A stretch of 64,000 nucleotides of DNA from Candidatus Bathyarchaeota archaeon (GTDB lineage: Archaea; Thermoproteota; Bathyarchaeia; Bathyarchaeales; SOJC01), in the NCBI GenBank assembly GCA_020341775.1, contig CP070835.1:1826717-1890716 (forward strand), in the 5' to 3' direction. Positions 25,052 to 32,332 of this stretch are shown in pieces. The notes under the pieces were generated by a model. The model ran no database searches, was not told the DNA's origin, and saw nothing but the letters and a program-made list of their open reading frames with translations. Both the position numbers and the translations under genes were made by a program. The first letter of the stretch is position 1, and each line of letters opens with the position of its first letter.

Positions 25052-25834
25052 ATGTTGAAAGGCATGCTTTCAGCGATTGGCATATACAAAGTCTATGAAG
25101 GATGGTTGTGGCATCAGGTCAAAAATGGTATCATGCCTAAACACATCGCAATAATTCTGGATGGTAACCGACGTTGGGCCTCTGAGCGACTACTTGAGTC
25201 GTGGATGGGCCATCAGCAGGGGGCGGAACGGGTTAGTCAGTTGCTTGATTGGTGTCTAGACATGGGGGTACGATGCGTTACCTTGTACTCCTTTTCTACG
25301 GAAAATTTCGCCAGAGCACCACAAGAGGTTGAGGAGATTTTTCACATCGCTGAGGAAAAGCTGCATGAGATCTTGACGGATGAACGCATTCACAGTAACA
25401 GGATTAGAGTCAAAGTTATTGGGAGAGTCGGCCTTTTGCCCAAAAAATTGCAGGAACTGATTAGAGAAGTGGAGGCAGCTACAGAAATGTATGACAGCCA
25501 GTTCTTGACTGTGGCCCTAGCTTACGGTGGGCGGGCTGAAATAGTTGATGCTACTAAGAAAATTGCTGAGAGAGTAAAGAATAATGAATTGCCCGTGGAG
25601 AAGATAGATGAAGATGTTTTCGAAAAGTTTCTATACACATCTCACATGCCGAATCCTGACCCTGATCTGATTATTCGAACTAGTGGAGAGGAACGGCTGA
25701 GCGGATTCTTATTGTGGCAGAGCGCTTATAGTGAGTTATGTTTTCTTGACGTTTTTTGGCCAGATTTTCGGCGGATTGATCTTCTGCGAGCTGTGAGAAC
25801 ATTTCAGCGACGCAAGCGGAAATTTGGCAAGTAG
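25052..25834 (+). CDS. uppS: Cis-prenyl diphosphate synthase (UppS family)
   Basis: A 260-residue cis-prenyltransferase: HIAIILDGNRRWA catalytic Asp region, GHQQGAERV, TLYSFSTENFAR, ALAYGGRAEIVDA and DLIIRTSGEERLSGFLLWQSAYSE in pieces along the chain. It extends isoprenoid diphosphates with isopentenyl diphosphate to make the dolichol-type lipid carrier for N-glycosylation. This is relevant to the ribophorin-like gene 5 kb away. It starts 13 bases after the phosphorylase gene. Confidence 0.95.
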   Translation: MLKGMLSAIGIYKVYEGWLWHQVKNGIMPKHIAIILDGNRRWASERLLESWMGHQQGAERVSQLLDWCLDMGVRCVTLYSFSTENFARAPQEVEEIFHIAEEKLHEILTDERIHSNRIRVKVIGRVGLLPKKLQELIREVEAATEMYDSQFLTVALAYGGRAEIVDATKKIAERVKNNELPVEKIDEDVFEKFLYTSHMPNPDPDLIIRTSGEERLSGFLLWQSAYSELCFLDVFWPDFRRIDLLRAVRTFQRRKRKFGK

Positions 25835-25841
25835 ATTAGCT

Positions 25842-27203
25842 TCAAGCTCTGCTTTTCGCTTCTTGTCGCGTTTTTTCGATCATCTGGCTCACTTGCTCAA
25901 AGGCTGTGCCGAGGTATTGATGGGGATCAAGGGCACACTCGATTTCTTGCAGCGTCAAGTATTTCCGAATTTGCTTGTTTTTCGACAACACGTCTTTGAA
26001 CTGGCTGTTTTGCCGCTCACTCTTGCTGGCAAGCTTTCTGAGAAGCTCATGTGCTTCTTGCCGATTCATTCCATTTCGTACAAGTGTGGTCATAACGGAC
26101 TCCGCCATCATCCGTCCTCGTGTAATATCCACGTTCTTCCGCATTCTGTCTGTATCAACCTGCAGATTCGCTAGGACTTTGACCATACGAGCCAGAATGT
26201 CATCCACTATGATGCAGGCTTCAGGAATCAGGAAACGTTCAGCAGAGGACTGGGTCATGTCTCGCTCATGCCATGTTTTCACGTTTTCAAGTGAAGGTGG
26301 GACCAAACTTCTCACAATTTTTGCCAATCCACACACTGTCTCGCATGTTTCAGGGTCGCGCTTCTGCGGCATAGTTGAGCTGCCAACTCTCTTTTTGCGG
26401 TCAAACGCTTCAAACACTTCTGCGATTTCTGGTCGTTGTAACTGTCTAATCTCTGTTGCAATGGTTTCCAGTGACGAGGCAATTAGCGCAAGAACACAAA
26501 TGAACTCCGCAAGGCGGTCACGCTGAACGATTTGTGTAGAAATGTCCGCGTAGCTCAAGCCGAGCTTCTTCATCACAAGTTCTTGAATTTTCTTAGCATT
26601 CTGCCCTAAACCTGCTTGGGTTCCCACGGCACCAGTGATTTTCCCAACGAGCAAACGTTTACTGCACTCCTTCAACCGCTGGATGTTTCGCGCGTTCTGC
26701 CGCATCCACACGGCAAATTTAAATCCCAAGGTTGTAGGCAATGCATGCTGGCCATGTGTTCTACCCACCATTATCGTCGTCTTGTGTTTGTCAGCTTTCT
26801 CGATCAGAACGAGTTCCAAATCGCCTAATTTCTGGTCAATAAGCTTTACTGCATCTTTGAGAGCAAGTGCAGTCGCGGTGTCAACTATGTCATAGCTGGT
26901 GGCGCCTAAGTGAACATACGCACCGCTTGAGCCACTTTGGTCAGCCAGAGCTCTGACAATTGCAGCTACATCGTGCACAATCTCCGCTTCAATAGCTTTG
27001 ACGTGATGAAGCTTCACATGCTGTGTCGAAGCTTTTCGCATGATGATTTCAGCGTCTTTTTGGGGGATATCCCCAACTTGTGCATGTGCCCAAGCAAGTG
27101 CACCTTCAACGTCGAGCATTCGCTGGAGCTTACTCTCTTCTTCGAAGATGCTCTTCATCTCTTCAGTTCCATAACGGCCTGTCTCAATAGGAAGAATCGG
27201 CAT
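25842..27203 (-). CDS. purB: Adenylosuccinate lyase
   Basis: A 453-residue fumarase/aspartase-superfamily enzyme. The family signature loop GSSTMPQKRDPETCE is present, as is the catalytic histidine region (VGRTHGQHALPTT). It performs two eliminations of fumarate in purine synthesis (SAICAR and adenylosuccinate). GAGGTG lies just before ATG 27203. It is convergent with uppS, leaving a seven-base gap. Confidence 0.96.
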   Translation of the reverse strand: MPILPIETGRYGTEEMKSIFEEESKLQRMLDVEGALAWAHAQVGDIPQKDAEIIMRKASTQHVKLHHVKAIEAEIVHDVAAIVRALADQSGSSGAYVHLGATSYDIVDTATALALKDAVKLIDQKLGDLELVLIEKADKHKTTIMVGRTHGQHALPTTLGFKFAVWMRQNARNIQRLKECSKRLLVGKITGAVGTQAGLGQNAKKIQELVMKKLGLSYADISTQIVQRDRLAEFICVLALIASSLETIATEIRQLQRPEIAEVFEAFDRKKRVGSSTMPQKRDPETCETVCGLAKIVRSLVPPSLENVKTWHERDMTQSSAERFLIPEACIIVDDILARMVKVLANLQVDTDRMRKNVDITRGRMMAESVMTTLVRNGMNRQEAHELLRKLASKSERQNSQFKDVLSKNKQIRKYLTLQEIECALDPHQYLGTAFEQVSQMIEKTRQEAKSRA

Positions 27204-27292
27204 TCACCCACCTCAACACGTGCTATTACAGTACTGCTTAGAGGATTAGGCTTTTTACCGTTTTCCCAATACTCTTACGGGAGGGACGCTTA

Positions 27293-28735
27293 ATGGGTGC
27301 CTTGATGGCGGTCGTCCACAAAAAATCGGCTGATGCGTCAGAACTCATTGTTATGATGCTTGAAGCATTAAGCCATCGAGGATCTGACTCTTTTGGCGTG
27401 GCTTCGCCCTATCGGGCGACAATACGAGAAACTGTCAAGGAATTGCAGAAGGAATGTGCTGGTTCTGACATTTTAATAGGACAAAATTTCGCAAAAATTT
27501 TGGTCAGAGACACACCTCAGCCTGTCTGCAGGGCGGATTTCAGCCTAGTTTTTGAAGGACGAGTCTTTCCTCCTCCCGACGACAATGAAGGGATCCTAGC
27601 CGCTGAAATGCTGATGAACTTCGAAAACAGGGAAGACTTTTTGATTCAACAATTGAGTGGTGATTACGCGTTTGCTGTCGCCAGAAGCGGTGAAATAGTA
27701 GTTGGGCGAGATCCCGTGGGCGCCTGCCCCCTTTACTTTGGCGAAAATGGAGACGTGTGTGCAGTAGCTTCAGAGCGTAAAGGTCTCTGGAGCATAGGCA
27801 TAACCAGGATCAATCACGTTCCGCCTGGAAGCTTGGTGCACCTCACAGAGAGGGGCGTCCGATTTGAAGTCGCTGGCACTCCAGTTCAGCCACCAAGGAT
27901 AAAAGTGGACATGGAAGGAGCAGCTCAGTTGCTGACAGATGCGTTGCTGCAATCCATCAAAAATCGAATTTCGGATGTGGACGACGTTGCAGTGGCTTTT
28001 TCGGGAGGTGTTGACAGCAGTCTTGTAGCCTTTATAGCAAGTCTAAGTGATGCGAATGTTCATCTTGTTTATGTTACGGTAGAAGGCCAAAAGGAAACCG
28101 CATTCGCGGAGCAAGCTGCGAAGGCGTTAGATCTCCCTATCCATGTCATACCATATGCGAGAAAAGATGTAGCGGAAACACTGCCAAAAGTACTATGGCT
28201 GATTGAAGAGCCAAACCCGTTGAATGCCAGCATTGGAATACCCATGTTTTGGGTTGCTGAGCATACCGCTAAGCTTGGTCTTCATGTTTTATTAACTGGA
28301 TTCGGGGGAGACGAGCTTTTTGGGGGATACCACCGATATCTCGAAGATTTTTTGCAGCATGGTTTGGCTGGCGTAGAGAAGAAACTTTATCGCGATGTGC
28401 TCTCTTTCAGTGAAATGAACCTCCCGCGAGACAACAAGGTCTGCGCTTTCCACAAGGTCGAACCAAGAATGCCCTTCATCGACGGAGACGTGATTCAACT
28501 GGCTTTGAGCGTTCCAGCCGAGCTAAAAATCACCGCATCAAACGACTGGCTGCGAAAGAGAGTTTTAAGATATGCTGCGAAAAGGCTTGGGATTCCAAAA
28601 TTCATATCAGAAAAGCCTAAAAAGGCCATCCAATATGCTACCGGCGTGAGCCAAGCTATGAAGAGTCTCGCCAAAAAGGAGGGCTTAACCTTACGGAGGT
28701 ACGTGGAAAAATCGTTCAGGGAAACAAGCAAATAG
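27293..28735 (+). CDS. Asparagine synthetase-like protein without the glutaminase cysteine
   Basis: A 480-residue AsnB-type protein. The N-terminal Ntn-like domain (about 1-185) keeps the HRGSDSFGV and LSGDYAFAVA segments but begins MGALMAV where active enzymes begin MCGI. It also has FEGRVF in place of the substrate-binding NGEIYN. The synthetase domain is intact (PPi loop AFSGGVDSSLVAF, about 235-247; GFGGDELFGGYHRY). A ribosome binding site (GGGAGG, eight bases upstream) fixes the start, so the missing cysteine is real. The likely nitrogen donor is ammonia, or the substrate is another acid. Confidence 0.85.
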   Translation: MGALMAVVHKKSADASELIVMMLEALSHRGSDSFGVASPYRATIRETVKELQKECAGSDILIGQNFAKILVRDTPQPVCRADFSLVFEGRVFPPPDDNEGILAAEMLMNFENREDFLIQQLSGDYAFAVARSGEIVVGRDPVGACPLYFGENGDVCAVASERKGLWSIGITRINHVPPGSLVHLTERGVRFEVAGTPVQPPRIKVDMEGAAQLLTDALLQSIKNRISDVDDVAVAFSGGVDSSLVAFIASLSDANVHLVYVTVEGQKETAFAEQAAKALDLPIHVIPYARKDVAETLPKVLWLIEEPNPLNASIGIPMFWVAEHTAKLGLHVLLTGFGGDELFGGYHRYLEDFLQHGLAGVEKKLYRDVLSFSEMNLPRDNKVCAFHKVEPRMPFIDGDVIQLALSVPAELKITASNDWLRKRVLRYAAKRLGIPKFISEKPKKAIQYATGVSQAMKSLAKKEGLTLRRYVEKSFRETSK

Positions 28736-28748
28736 GCGTGTTGGAAAC

Positions 28749-29819
28749 ATGGAAGAAATGGCGATCGTCTTCTCCCCGAAATACTACGAGCATAACACTG
28801 GCCGAGATCATCCTGAATCTTCGAGACGACTCAAAACTGTAATGAGAGAATTGAAGAGACTGAATCTGTTTTCAGCGACGACTGGATGTCAGTTGGTTGA
28901 ACCCGAATTGGCAAGCATTGAAAATCTTGAACTTGTGCATGACCCTGAATATGTTGGGCTCGTTAAACGCATTTGTGAGTTGGGCGGTGGGTTGCTCGAT
29001 CTGGGCGATACAGTGGTCTCTCCGAAGAGTTTTGAGGTAGCACGGTATGCTGTTGGAGGAGCAAGGAAGGCTGTAGACTCCGTTTTAGATGGTAATTATC
29101 AGAAGGCCTTCGCGTTAGTTCGGCCCCCCGGGCATCACGCAGGGCCTTATTATGGCGCGGGATTTTGTGTGTTCAACAACGTTGCGGTTGCGGCAGCCTA
29201 TCTGATCGAGCAGCACAGTTTTGAAAGGGTGCTAATTCTCGATGTAGACGCGCATCATGGAAATGGAACGCAAGAAATCTTTTATGACTCTGAAAAGGCG
29301 CTTTACATGAGTTTACATGAAGACCCTAGAGAATTTCCGGGAACTGGATTTGTGGATGAAGTCGGAGAGGGAGCAGGGTTAGGATACAACGTCAATGTTC
29401 CTCTTCCCTTTGGGACGGGTGATGAAGAATACATGAAAGCGTTTGACGAGGTTGTGGTTCCGGTGGCCCGCCAATATGAGCCCCAATTCGTTTTGGTCTC
29501 TGTTGGTTATGACTCCCACTATGGGGATCCTGTTGGGAAACTACAACTCTCAGCTGCTGCATATGAATCAATTTTCAAGAAGACACTGGATTTGGCATCA
29601 ACTGTCTGTCAGGGCAGATTGGTCGCTGTGTTGGAGGGGGGCTACAATCTTGGACAGTTAGGAAAACTTGCTGCATTGACCATTTCTAGAATGGCGGATT
29701 TCTCATATTCGATGAAAGATGGAACTCCACCAGCAAACTCAAACGTTGCGAGAAGAGCAAGAAGAGTGATAGAAAAAGTGGAGAAGGCGCATTCAGCTTT
29801 TTGGAAGTTAAGGGCTTAA
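28749..29819 (+). CDS. Histone deacetylase-family amidohydrolase
   Basis: A 356-residue arginase-fold deacetylase with RPPGHHA, the zinc-binding DVDAHHGNGTQ, a second Asp in GYDSHYGDP and the Tyr of EGGYN. Relatives include AcuC, HdaH and acetylpolyamine hydrolases, so the substrate may be an acetyl-lysine or acetylpolyamine. It follows the asparagine-synthetase-like gene by 13 bases and is probably in the same operon. Confidence 0.92.
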   Translation: MEEMAIVFSPKYYEHNTGRDHPESSRRLKTVMRELKRLNLFSATTGCQLVEPELASIENLELVHDPEYVGLVKRICELGGGLLDLGDTVVSPKSFEVARYAVGGARKAVDSVLDGNYQKAFALVRPPGHHAGPYYGAGFCVFNNVAVAAAYLIEQHSFERVLILDVDAHHGNGTQEIFYDSEKALYMSLHEDPREFPGTGFVDEVGEGAGLGYNVNVPLPFGTGDEEYMKAFDEVVVPVARQYEPQFVLVSVGYDSHYGDPVGKLQLSAAAYESIFKKTLDLASTVCQGRLVAVLEGGYNLGQLGKLAALTISRMADFSYSMKDGTPPANSNVARRARRVIEKVEKAHSAFWKLRA

Positions 29820-29826
29820 AGTCACT

Positions 29827-30009
29827 TTATTCGATGACTTCGATCGCGCTACTGGGGCATTGAACTTCGCAAGCTCTACAAACCAAGCATTCTTCTGGCT
29901 TGACGGGCATTGACTTGTCGTCTTTCATTTCGAACACTTCTACTGGACAAGTGTCAACACATGTAGCGCATCCATCACATTTCTCTAAATCTACTTTGAC
30001 TTCAACCAT
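29827..30009 (-). CDS. 2[4Fe-4S] ferredoxin
   Basis: A 60-residue ferredoxin with two CX2CX2CX3CP motifs (CDGCATCVDTCP and CLVCRACEVQCP). It is a low-potential electron carrier for enzymes such as the 2-oxoacid:ferredoxin oxidoreductase in this window. It lies downstream of the ribophorin-like gene on the same strand (75-base gap). Confidence 0.95.
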   Translation of the reverse strand: MVEVKVDLEKCDGCATCVDTCPVEVFEMKDDKSMPVKPEECLVCRACEVQCPSSAIEVIE

Positions 30010-30084
30010 GTTGCTTACCTCAAAGGAATTCGAATGAAAAGACGCTTTATGAATAAAAATGTTTTGGAATATCCGTGCACATTA

Positions 30085-31809
30085 CTATTCTCTGAGTCTT
30101 AAGAGAAGACCGTCAATTGTCGTTTTTGCCCGTTCCTTTCGGCGCAAGTCTTCTTCGAGAAGTCGCCGATAGGCTTGAGCGGAAATTTCACCTCGTTTAA
30201 ATCGAACCTCAATTCGCCTCATATCCGCCTCGATATTGTCGATTTCTGTTTCCGTGACCTCAAACTGTCTCATAATGTCCGCGTATTTTGCTCCACCACT
30301 CATAATTTTCTGCTGCAACTCAGCCAGTCTCTTCGAAAAGGTGGAAGCCCGGTTTTCTAACGTTGTCTTTCTAATCTTATATCGTCGCCTTGAAATCTTT
30401 CCTTTGCGGGCTTTTCGTTGCATCTGTTCAAGCTCAGCATAGACTTTTTTTCTCTCTTCGTAAACTTCAACAAAGTTTGTCAACGTCTTGCGTGGAACTA
30501 AATCCACTGAAACAGGCATCGGCGCTTCAGGTCTTTGCCAAGCAAAAGCTATGATCGAACCAACAACCACGAGTGCCGTTACCCAAATCGTTGGGCGAAA
30601 GGATGTCCAGAAAATCGTGTAATTGTAGGTGAAGTTCGCCTGTTCATTTTGCAGCCAAGTGAAATTAGTTAAGGAAAGAGAAAGCGAGTCTTGAAAAACG
30701 TCTCGTTGCAGGTTAAATGTCTGGTCCGGAAATGATTGAATCGCTGCCCCTTCGGGAAAAACGATTTTCACAGCTAAGAGCTGTGGCATTAATTGCAGGT
30801 TTTCTGAAAAGCCCAACGTCAAAACGTAGCTTTGGGACCCCTGCTGAGTGAGGTGATTTTCACTTGGAATGCTGTAGATTAGCCTAAAACTTTTTGATTG
30901 ATTTGCCACTAGGACGAGAGGAACTTCAGGCACATTCGAAGCGTTCGTCAGGATTTCTTTGCCTTGTTCATCGAAAGCAAAGACGTCGCTGACATCGTCA
31001 GAGAGCTTTAATTTTATTTTGCTTATTGTGAATGCAGTCTTGCTTTCTAAGACAAAAAGCTCAGATAAGGAGATTCGTCCATTGTTATCCACCTTAATTT
31101 CTCGGTCCTGTTTTTTCACTGAGAAACAGGCGAATTCGTTACTATCTCCAAAACTGAAACTCACCTTTGCGAACTCGCGGGAAAGTTGGGGAAGGTTGGT
31201 TTTTGTGATGTTCAAAATGTACCTTTCGGCCTTTTGAATAGCGGTGAAAGGCAAATCGCTTTCAGTGTAATTGGTGTTCTCTGGCAAAATGACAGTAGTG
31301 TTGCACGTTGACACCTCATGGAGGAGGCTTGGATAGGCTGGAAAGTCAACAGTGAATAGCTGGGTGTTTAGAGACTGAAGTAGGTCTGCCAAGACGAAAA
31401 TTACAGTGAAAGTATGAGACTCGCCATTATGAAGCAAGTCGCTTATTTCGGGAGGAAATGTGATGGTGACCCCGTAGTATCCTGCCACGCCTAAGCCAGT
31501 ATCAAGGTCCACCTGCAAATGCTCGTTGAAGTTCTCGCTACTAAAGGCCATAGAATAACGCAGATTTGCACTGTATTTACGTGGAAACCCAATTGAGAAA
31601 CGCTCTATCGTAGCGTTTTCTACCGTTGGTGATATTTTCACTGTGTCATTGATGAGGACCAAACCCCCATAAACTGGGGTGACCACGTGGTCGATTTTTT
31701 CAACTTGAATCGGCAAAGGCGAAGCGGCCATTGTTTGGCGGGGAACAAGTAGTAGAAGTGAGACAAATGACAAGGCTAGCAATAGCAGCAATAATGTTGC
31801 CTTTTTCAA
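30085..31809 (-). CDS. Ribophorin I-like membrane protein
   Basis: A 574-residue protein with a signal peptide (about 1-28), a large external beta-rich region (about 30-405) rich in N-X-S/T sites, one membrane span (about 405-428) and a cytoplasmic coiled-coil tail (about 440-574). This is the layout of eukaryotic ribophorin I (OST1), a subunit of the oligosaccharyltransferase. Several segments correspond in order: REIKVDNNGRISLSE, DVFAFDEQG, VKIVFPEGA before the span, and a tail ending in a charged coil. The homology is my reading by eye and needs profile confirmation. TTG start, with GAGG eight bases upstream. Confidence 0.6.
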   Translation of the reverse strand: MKKATLLLLLLALSFVSLLLLVPRQTMAASPLPIQVEKIDHVVTPVYGGLVLINDTVKISPTVENATIERFSIGFPRKYSANLRYSMAFSSENFNEHLQVDLDTGLGVAGYYGVTITFPPEISDLLHNGESHTFTVIFVLADLLQSLNTQLFTVDFPAYPSLLHEVSTCNTTVILPENTNYTESDLPFTAIQKAERYILNITKTNLPQLSREFAKVSFSFGDSNEFACFSVKKQDREIKVDNNGRISLSELFVLESKTAFTISKIKLKLSDDVSDVFAFDEQGKEILTNASNVPEVPLVLVANQSKSFRLIYSIPSENHLTQQGSQSYVLTLGFSENLQLMPQLLAVKIVFPEGAAIQSFPDQTFNLQRDVFQDSLSLSLTNFTWLQNEQANFTYNYTIFWTSFRPTIWVTALVVVGSIIAFAWQRPEAPMPVSVDLVPRKTLTNFVEVYEERKKVYAELEQMQRKARKGKISRRRYKIRKTTLENRASTFSKRLAELQQKIMSGGAKYADIMRQFEVTETEIDNIEADMRRIEVRFKRGEISAQAYRRLLEEDLRRKERAKTTIDGLLLRLRE

Positions 31810-31978
31810 ATCCGGCGCCTCATGAACAGTCTCCGTATCTAACTCACATTATCCTTATTTACTTTCTCATTGGATTTACAGAACCTGGTAATCCTCTCAC
31901 TATTAAGTGTATATCAGCTTCATATTTGTCTGGAGACTGGATTACAAGCGGGCGCATTCGATGTGGTATTAGAGAGTG

Positions 31979-32332
31979 TTATTTCTTGCCGAGTCGTTGA
32001 AAATAGTAGCCTTCTTCTTTTTTCGGTCCGAAGCTGCGGACGCCTTTTTTTCTGAGCTGCTGTCGCAGCTTTTGGGCATAATTTGAAGTTATCTCGCTGC
32101 GGTTTTCCATGTAAGCGATTATTTCTTCTGCTTGCTTTTCGTTGTCGCATCGACGAAGAAAATCAATTATGTCTGGGCTGTAGTTGGAAAGGTTTTTTTG
32201 GGCTTTCGCTGCTTTTTCTGCGTCTTCTACGTTGGAGCGTATGGAGTCTATTTCCAGTTTTTGTTCGCTGGTGTTCATCTCGTTTGCGAGATTTGGGAAT
32301 ATTTTCTTGAATCGCTCCTTGTTAATTTCCAA
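31979..32332 (-). CDS. DUF2095 protein
   Basis: A 117-residue protein with the conserved core of archaeal DUF2095 (YSPDIIDFLRRCDNEKQAEE, about 51-70) and the C-terminal KKGVRSFGPKKEEGYY. No function is known for the family. It is divergent from the PrcB-domain gene, with 133 bases between the starts. Confidence 0.85.
   Translation of the reverse strand: MEINKERFKKIFPNLANEMNTSEQKLEIDSIRSNVEDAEKAAKAQKNLSNYSPDIIDFLRRCDNEKQAEEIIAYMENRSEITSNYAQKLRQQLRKKGVRSFGPKKEEGYYFQRLGKK

Follow-up and report, generated by a model that had tools for sequence, protein, structure and literature searches.

A conserved Bathyarchaeia homologue of ribophorin I (OST1), a probable accessory subunit of the AglB oligosaccharyltransferase

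Gene layout and neighbourhood

The window analyzed here, a 64,000-nucleotide stretch of contig CP070835.1 from a Candidatus Bathyarchaeota archaeon, carries at positions 30085-31809 one open reading frame (ORF) of 574 amino acids (aa) on the minus strand; the plus strand is riddled with stops throughout this interval. The ORF begins with a TTG codon that aligns with the MKKAT/MRK starts of its relatives and has a GAGG sequence 8-9 bases on its 5' side. The gene, the regions of its product and its two closest conserved neighbours are as follows.

30085..31809, minus strand: OST1/ribophorin I homologue, 574 aa (ORF, profile matches to human and yeast OST1, top eight Foldseek matches in the PDB all OST1)
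31723..31809, minus strand: signal peptide region, residues 1-29 (hydropathy and model)
30616..31722, minus strand: beta-rich external part of two domains, like that of OST1, residues 30-398 (DSSP of the AlphaFold2 model, alignment with human and yeast OST1)
30538..30615, minus strand: single transmembrane helix, residues 399-424 (model helix 399-424, hydropathy peak at windows 404-408)
30091..30492, minus strand: strongly basic bundle of four cytoplasmic helices, residues 440-573, putatively ribosome-binding (model, match to 8WHN)
31979..32332, minus strand: DUF2095 protein, conserved upstream neighbour (PF09868, E 4.5e-31; 34/43 Bathyarchaeia loci)
29827..30009, minus strand: small ferredoxin-like gene, conserved downstream neighbour (two CxxCxxCxxxC motifs; 38/43 loci)

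An initial annotation, made from the sequence of the window, had described a ribophorin I-like protein with a signal peptide, a glycan-rich external beta domain, one membrane span and a cytoplasmic coiled coil. Hydropathy and the AlphaFold2 model agree on the signal peptide and the single span: the N-terminus is hydrophobic over residues 1-28 (19-residue windows 1-10 score at most 2.86) and is modelled as a helix at 2-21 followed by a low-confidence segment at 23-30, and one further hydrophobic span lies at about residues 404-424. The external portion is beta-rich in the model (34-396), with the boundary between its two domains near residues 222-228, and contains 10 N-glycosylation sequons compared to 4.2 expected from shuffles (p 0.004); three of them (N54, N170 and N382) are retained in 20-22 of 27 relatives. 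The C-terminal part is indeed helical, but the model shows a compact four-helix bundle instead of an extended coiled coil, with helices of about 30 residues each (440-468, 474-503, 507-538 and 544-573). Among the 27 relatives this bundle has a median net charge of +13 in 135 residues, free of indels, and in the alignment it varies less than any other part of the protein, the external domains being conserved too.

The surroundings of the gene are highly constant. Across Bathyarchaeia the order is DUF2095, OST1, ferredoxin, (histone-deacetylase-like), asparagine-synthase-like and PurB-like (25842-32332 in the window; loci L035-L074), the asparagine-synthase-like gene lying near OST1 in 35 of 43 loci, the histone-deacetylase-like gene in 29 and the lyase-like gene, PurB-like by reading, in 26. 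Two neighbourhood arguments of the initial annotation fared less well. The cis-prenyltransferase placed about 5 kb away is present (25052-25834; PF01255, E 1.6e-79), but just 6 of the 43 related loci have it close to OST1, and we rejected this local linkage as functional support. Likewise, the neighbouring surface proteins are not generally rich in glycosylation sites, since the 803-aa subtilase nearby has zero sequons and enrichment is confined to a PrcB-like protein (5 versus 1.7 expected), so this line of support was also dropped.

Sequence homology to OST1

Searched alone, the protein has Ribophorin_I (PF04597) as its best Pfam match, with 22.7 bits (E 6e-05) just missing the curated cut-off of 25. 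The comparison with this profile that the initial annotation had proposed came out positive in an equivalent form, with 19 of 27 Bathyarchaeia members matching at E 0.1 or below (strongest 3e-12). In other families of the phylum, full-length members reach E 3e-14, and several members outside Bathyarchaeia exceed the Pfam cut-off.

Profiles built from two alignments establish the homology. The first (A1, 27 Bathyarchaeia members), run against PDB sequences, matched human OST1 (6s7o_E) at 5.2e-14 over positions 199-528, colinearly from the second luminal domain through the span and into the bundle, and the cytosolic domain of OST1 from the Asgard archaeon Prometheoarchaeum syntrophicum MK-D1 (8whn) at 1.6e-11. 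With the second, more diverse alignment (A2, 26 sequences), the E-values were 3e-34 for human OST1, 7e-20 for the MK-D1 cytosolic domain and 7.6e-16 for yeast Ost1 (profile positions 16-416), in keeping with the OST1 identity first proposed. The yeast match comprises the external part and the span only, and homology in this region is therefore independent of the helical C-terminus. All three segments that had been singled out as following ribophorin I, GRISLSE, DVFAFDEQG and VKIVFPEGA, pair in the profile alignment with human OST1 (WGNIAVEEN, DVYYRDEIG and VKIILPEGA, respectively).

Predicted fold and comparison with known OST1 proteins

The AlphaFold2 model (27 sequences; mean pLDDT 87.5, pTM 0.63) has the OST1 fold. 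Its eight best PDB matches by Foldseek are all human or yeast OST1 chains (E 2.4e-28 to 2.1e-19), matched over about 430-600 columns and across the luminal domains and membrane span, and the ninth, an unrelated protein at 7e-8, is weaker by 11 orders of magnitude. The bundle matches the MK-D1 structure 8WHN (TMt 0.82, 2.2 Å rmsd, 23% identity), so that the predicted-fold comparison bears out the OST1 assignment both outside the membrane and in the cytosol. Against full-length human chains the overall TM is about 0.5 with a high rmsd, which probably reflects domain placement, while chains lacking the bundle superpose at 5-6 Å over about 446 columns. The C-terminal part gives weak matches to the coiled-coil families GvpG, CdvA and tropomyosin, as might an ordinary surface protein whose coiled coil and unrelated beta domain resembled OST1 by chance. 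The colinear profile matches of the external part to human and yeast OST1 and the eight leading fold matches refute this explanation, to which we assign a negligible probability.

Human OST1 (RPN1; subunit of OST-A and OST-B, PDB 8B6L, 6S7O and 6S7T) shows the identical order of two external beta domains, one span and a cytosolic four-helix bundle, at only about 15% identity to the Bathyarchaeia protein. The human protein resides in the endoplasmic reticulum (ER), whereas its Bathyarchaeia counterpart would sit in the archaeal cell membrane with partners that we infer. Yeast Ost1 (PDB 6EZN, 7OCI, 8AGB and 6C26) has the external domains and span in common with the Bathyarchaeia protein, but its 476-residue chain stops soon after the span, where the Bathyarchaeia protein carries the bundle. 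The MK-D1 bundle superposes on the Bathyarchaeia one (8WHN; PMC11417166); that structure covers the cytosolic domain only, and MK-D1, an Asgard host, also has TRAP subunits. One family of the phylum (f22) encodes a short OST1 of 415-429 aa, in which a proline-rich basic tail directly follows the span and the four-helix bundle is missing, as in yeast Ost1. The genes are:

L133:2813-4060, short OST1
L134:2893-4182, short OST1
L135:3052-4302, short OST1
L136:3603-4874, short OST1

Distribution of OST1

The named relatives belong nearly all to Candidatus Bathyarchaeota/Bathyarchaeia. To survey the phylum, we searched 397 sampled genomes (93 Bathyarchaeia and 304 others) with the A2 profile at E 1e-15 or better, and matches at 1e-3 to 1e-14 were left uncounted because the coiled region draws chance matches. 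OST1 is conserved across Bathyarchaeia (84/93 genomes) and occurs in 77 of the 304 other genomes, belonging to many other families, and absences in these counts may be failures of sensitivity. Genomes lacking a clear OST1 include members of two Bathyarchaeia genera, g25 in part and g27 in all three sampled, which suggests loss or strong divergence; AglB and the OSTC-like protein described below are kept in G031, G043, G046, G223, G263, G283, G290 and G339, where no clear OST1 was found.

OST1 has mostly been described in the literature as an Asgard and eukaryotic protein, a record that would fit its transfer from Asgard archaea into this lineage in place of ancestral descent. Its near-universal presence in Bathyarchaeia with conserved synteny, its occurrence in many of the phylum's other families and the mere 23% identity to the MK-D1 domain make such a transfer quite improbable.

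The host assembly (G000) holds three further OST1 pieces beside the window copy:

G000:C1:206409-208103, further OST1 piece (L031)
G000:C1:317980-319152, further OST1 piece (L032)
G000:C1:645499-645798, further OST1 piece (L033)

We rejected the idea that the four copies are paralogues, as the other three lie on short pieces flanked by 100-N runs. They are 93-99% identical to each other where they overlap and 63-91% identical to genes of another Bathyarchaeia family (at loci such as L071, L052 and L069), far more than the 38% identity of the first to the window copy; they are probably foreign contigs in the bin.

AglB and an OSTC-like protein

The catalytic oligosaccharyltransferase (OST) AglB is encoded in the host at G000:C1:1915077-1916195, about 57 kb from OST1 and thus not adjacent to it. 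Among the 161 genomes with a clear OST1, 158 have an AglB match; for the other three (G018, G042 and G304), in which no match was found, incompleteness or a missed gene is perhaps the cause. AglB is also present in many genomes without OST1, and OST1 therefore behaves as an accessory.

When Bathyarchaeia were searched for the OST3/OST6 family, most yielded a stand-alone protein of some 145 residues whose match is confined to the family's membrane half and which lacks the thioredoxin domain. A four-sequence profile of it matched human OSTC (DC2) at 6e-11 and MagT1 at only 0.84, and a 13-sequence profile gave 3.7e-12 and 3.4e-05, respectively. The copies referred to here, which lie outside the window, are:

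G000:C1:1898045-1898467, minus strand: OSTC/DC2-like membrane protein, host copy
L132:6037-6471: OSTC/DC2-like protein, another copy (relatives in alignments A3 and A4)

The model of the host copy (pLDDT 77) has OST-complex chains of the OSTC, Ost3/Ost6 and MagT1 kind as its top nine PDB matches, OSTC first, with modest E-values of 1.2e-3 and weaker. In 80 genomes the OSTC-like gene and AglB were found on one contig, and in 67 of these the two are no more than 10 kb apart. Outside Bathyarchaeia, 49 genomes have both OST1 and the OSTC-like protein, 28 and 16 have a single one of the two, and 211 have neither (odds ratio 23, p 6e-23, a statistic that ignores relatedness). For Ost5 (PF05251), none of 21 relatives gave a match over the cut-off, and control genomes matched equally often.

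These data bear on whether the homologue still serves AglB or has become a membrane anchor for ribosomes or for another translocon factor. The gene is unlinked to AglB and travels instead with DUF2095, the ferredoxin and the asparagine-synthase-like gene, and its most constant part is the basic bundle, all of which an anchor would explain. An anchor would not, however, be expected to be almost confined to genomes with AglB, to track an OSTC-like subunit encoded beside AglB or to conserve its external domains as well, and we regard this alternative as unlikely, if less so than a transfer from Asgard archaea. We conclude that the gene probably encodes an archaeal OST1 acting as an accessory subunit of the AglB-catalyzed OST.

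Discussion

By analogy with the eukaryotic and MK-D1 OST1 proteins, association with AglB, ribosome binding and co-translational action can be proposed for the Bathyarchaeia protein. OST1 would bind AglB through its span, the one helix that crosses the membrane, and through its external domains, which would lie outside the membrane, close beside the active site of AglB, and probably keep hold of the acceptor polypeptide or pass it on. Inside the cell, the basic four-helix bundle would probably dock on the ribosome and hold AglB at the SecY translocon, allowing N-glycosylation of nascent proteins while they emerge. The bundles of human and MK-D1 OST1 pull down ribosomes, the MK-D1 bundle having been assayed with human ribosomes (PMC11417166), and the charge of the Bathyarchaeia bundle is compatible with ribosome binding.

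In human OST-A, DC2 links the OST to the Sec61 translocon, and the ribosome is contacted by the bundle of OST1. The occurrence of OST1 together with an OSTC-like protein suggests a multi-subunit, ribosome-coupled archaeal OST of the OST-A type, a complex that we infer from its parts. We see roughly even chances that such an enzyme is built from AglB, a bundle-bearing OST1 and a stand-alone OSTC/DC2-like subunit encoded beside AglB, both in Bathyarchaeia and in several further lineages outside Asgard.

According to reviews, the OST of prokaryotes consists of one polypeptide (PMC7226087), and in 2016 none of the non-catalytic subunits was found to have a homologue in prokaryotes (Lombard 2016; PMC4973528). 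Later work reported OST1 in Asgard archaea, and a 2024 study in JBC assigned OST1 and OST3/6 to TACK and Asgard archaea as well as to eukaryotes (PMC11417166). The view of the initial annotation that archaeal relatives are noted mainly in Asgard genomes thus holds less well as a claim of novelty: TACK occurrence had already been stated, and the Bathyarchaeia OST1 adds to a known family. Our literature search, which included few subscription journals, found nothing on OST1 in work on Bathyarchaeia N-glycosylation and no paper on class-wide OST1, bundle retention or an AglB-linked OSTC-like protein; these three features go beyond the one-line statement of 2024.

The pairing of a bundle-bearing OST1 with an OSTC-like protein makes the coupling of N-glycosylation to translation directly testable outside Asgard archaea, and it is relevant to the question of which components of the ER translocon of eukaryotes already existed in archaea. 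If the proposed complex is real, the textbook single-subunit prokaryotic OST would misdescribe Bathyarchaeia and several other non-Asgard lineages, and translation-coupled N-glycosylation would predate the Asgard-eukaryote line.
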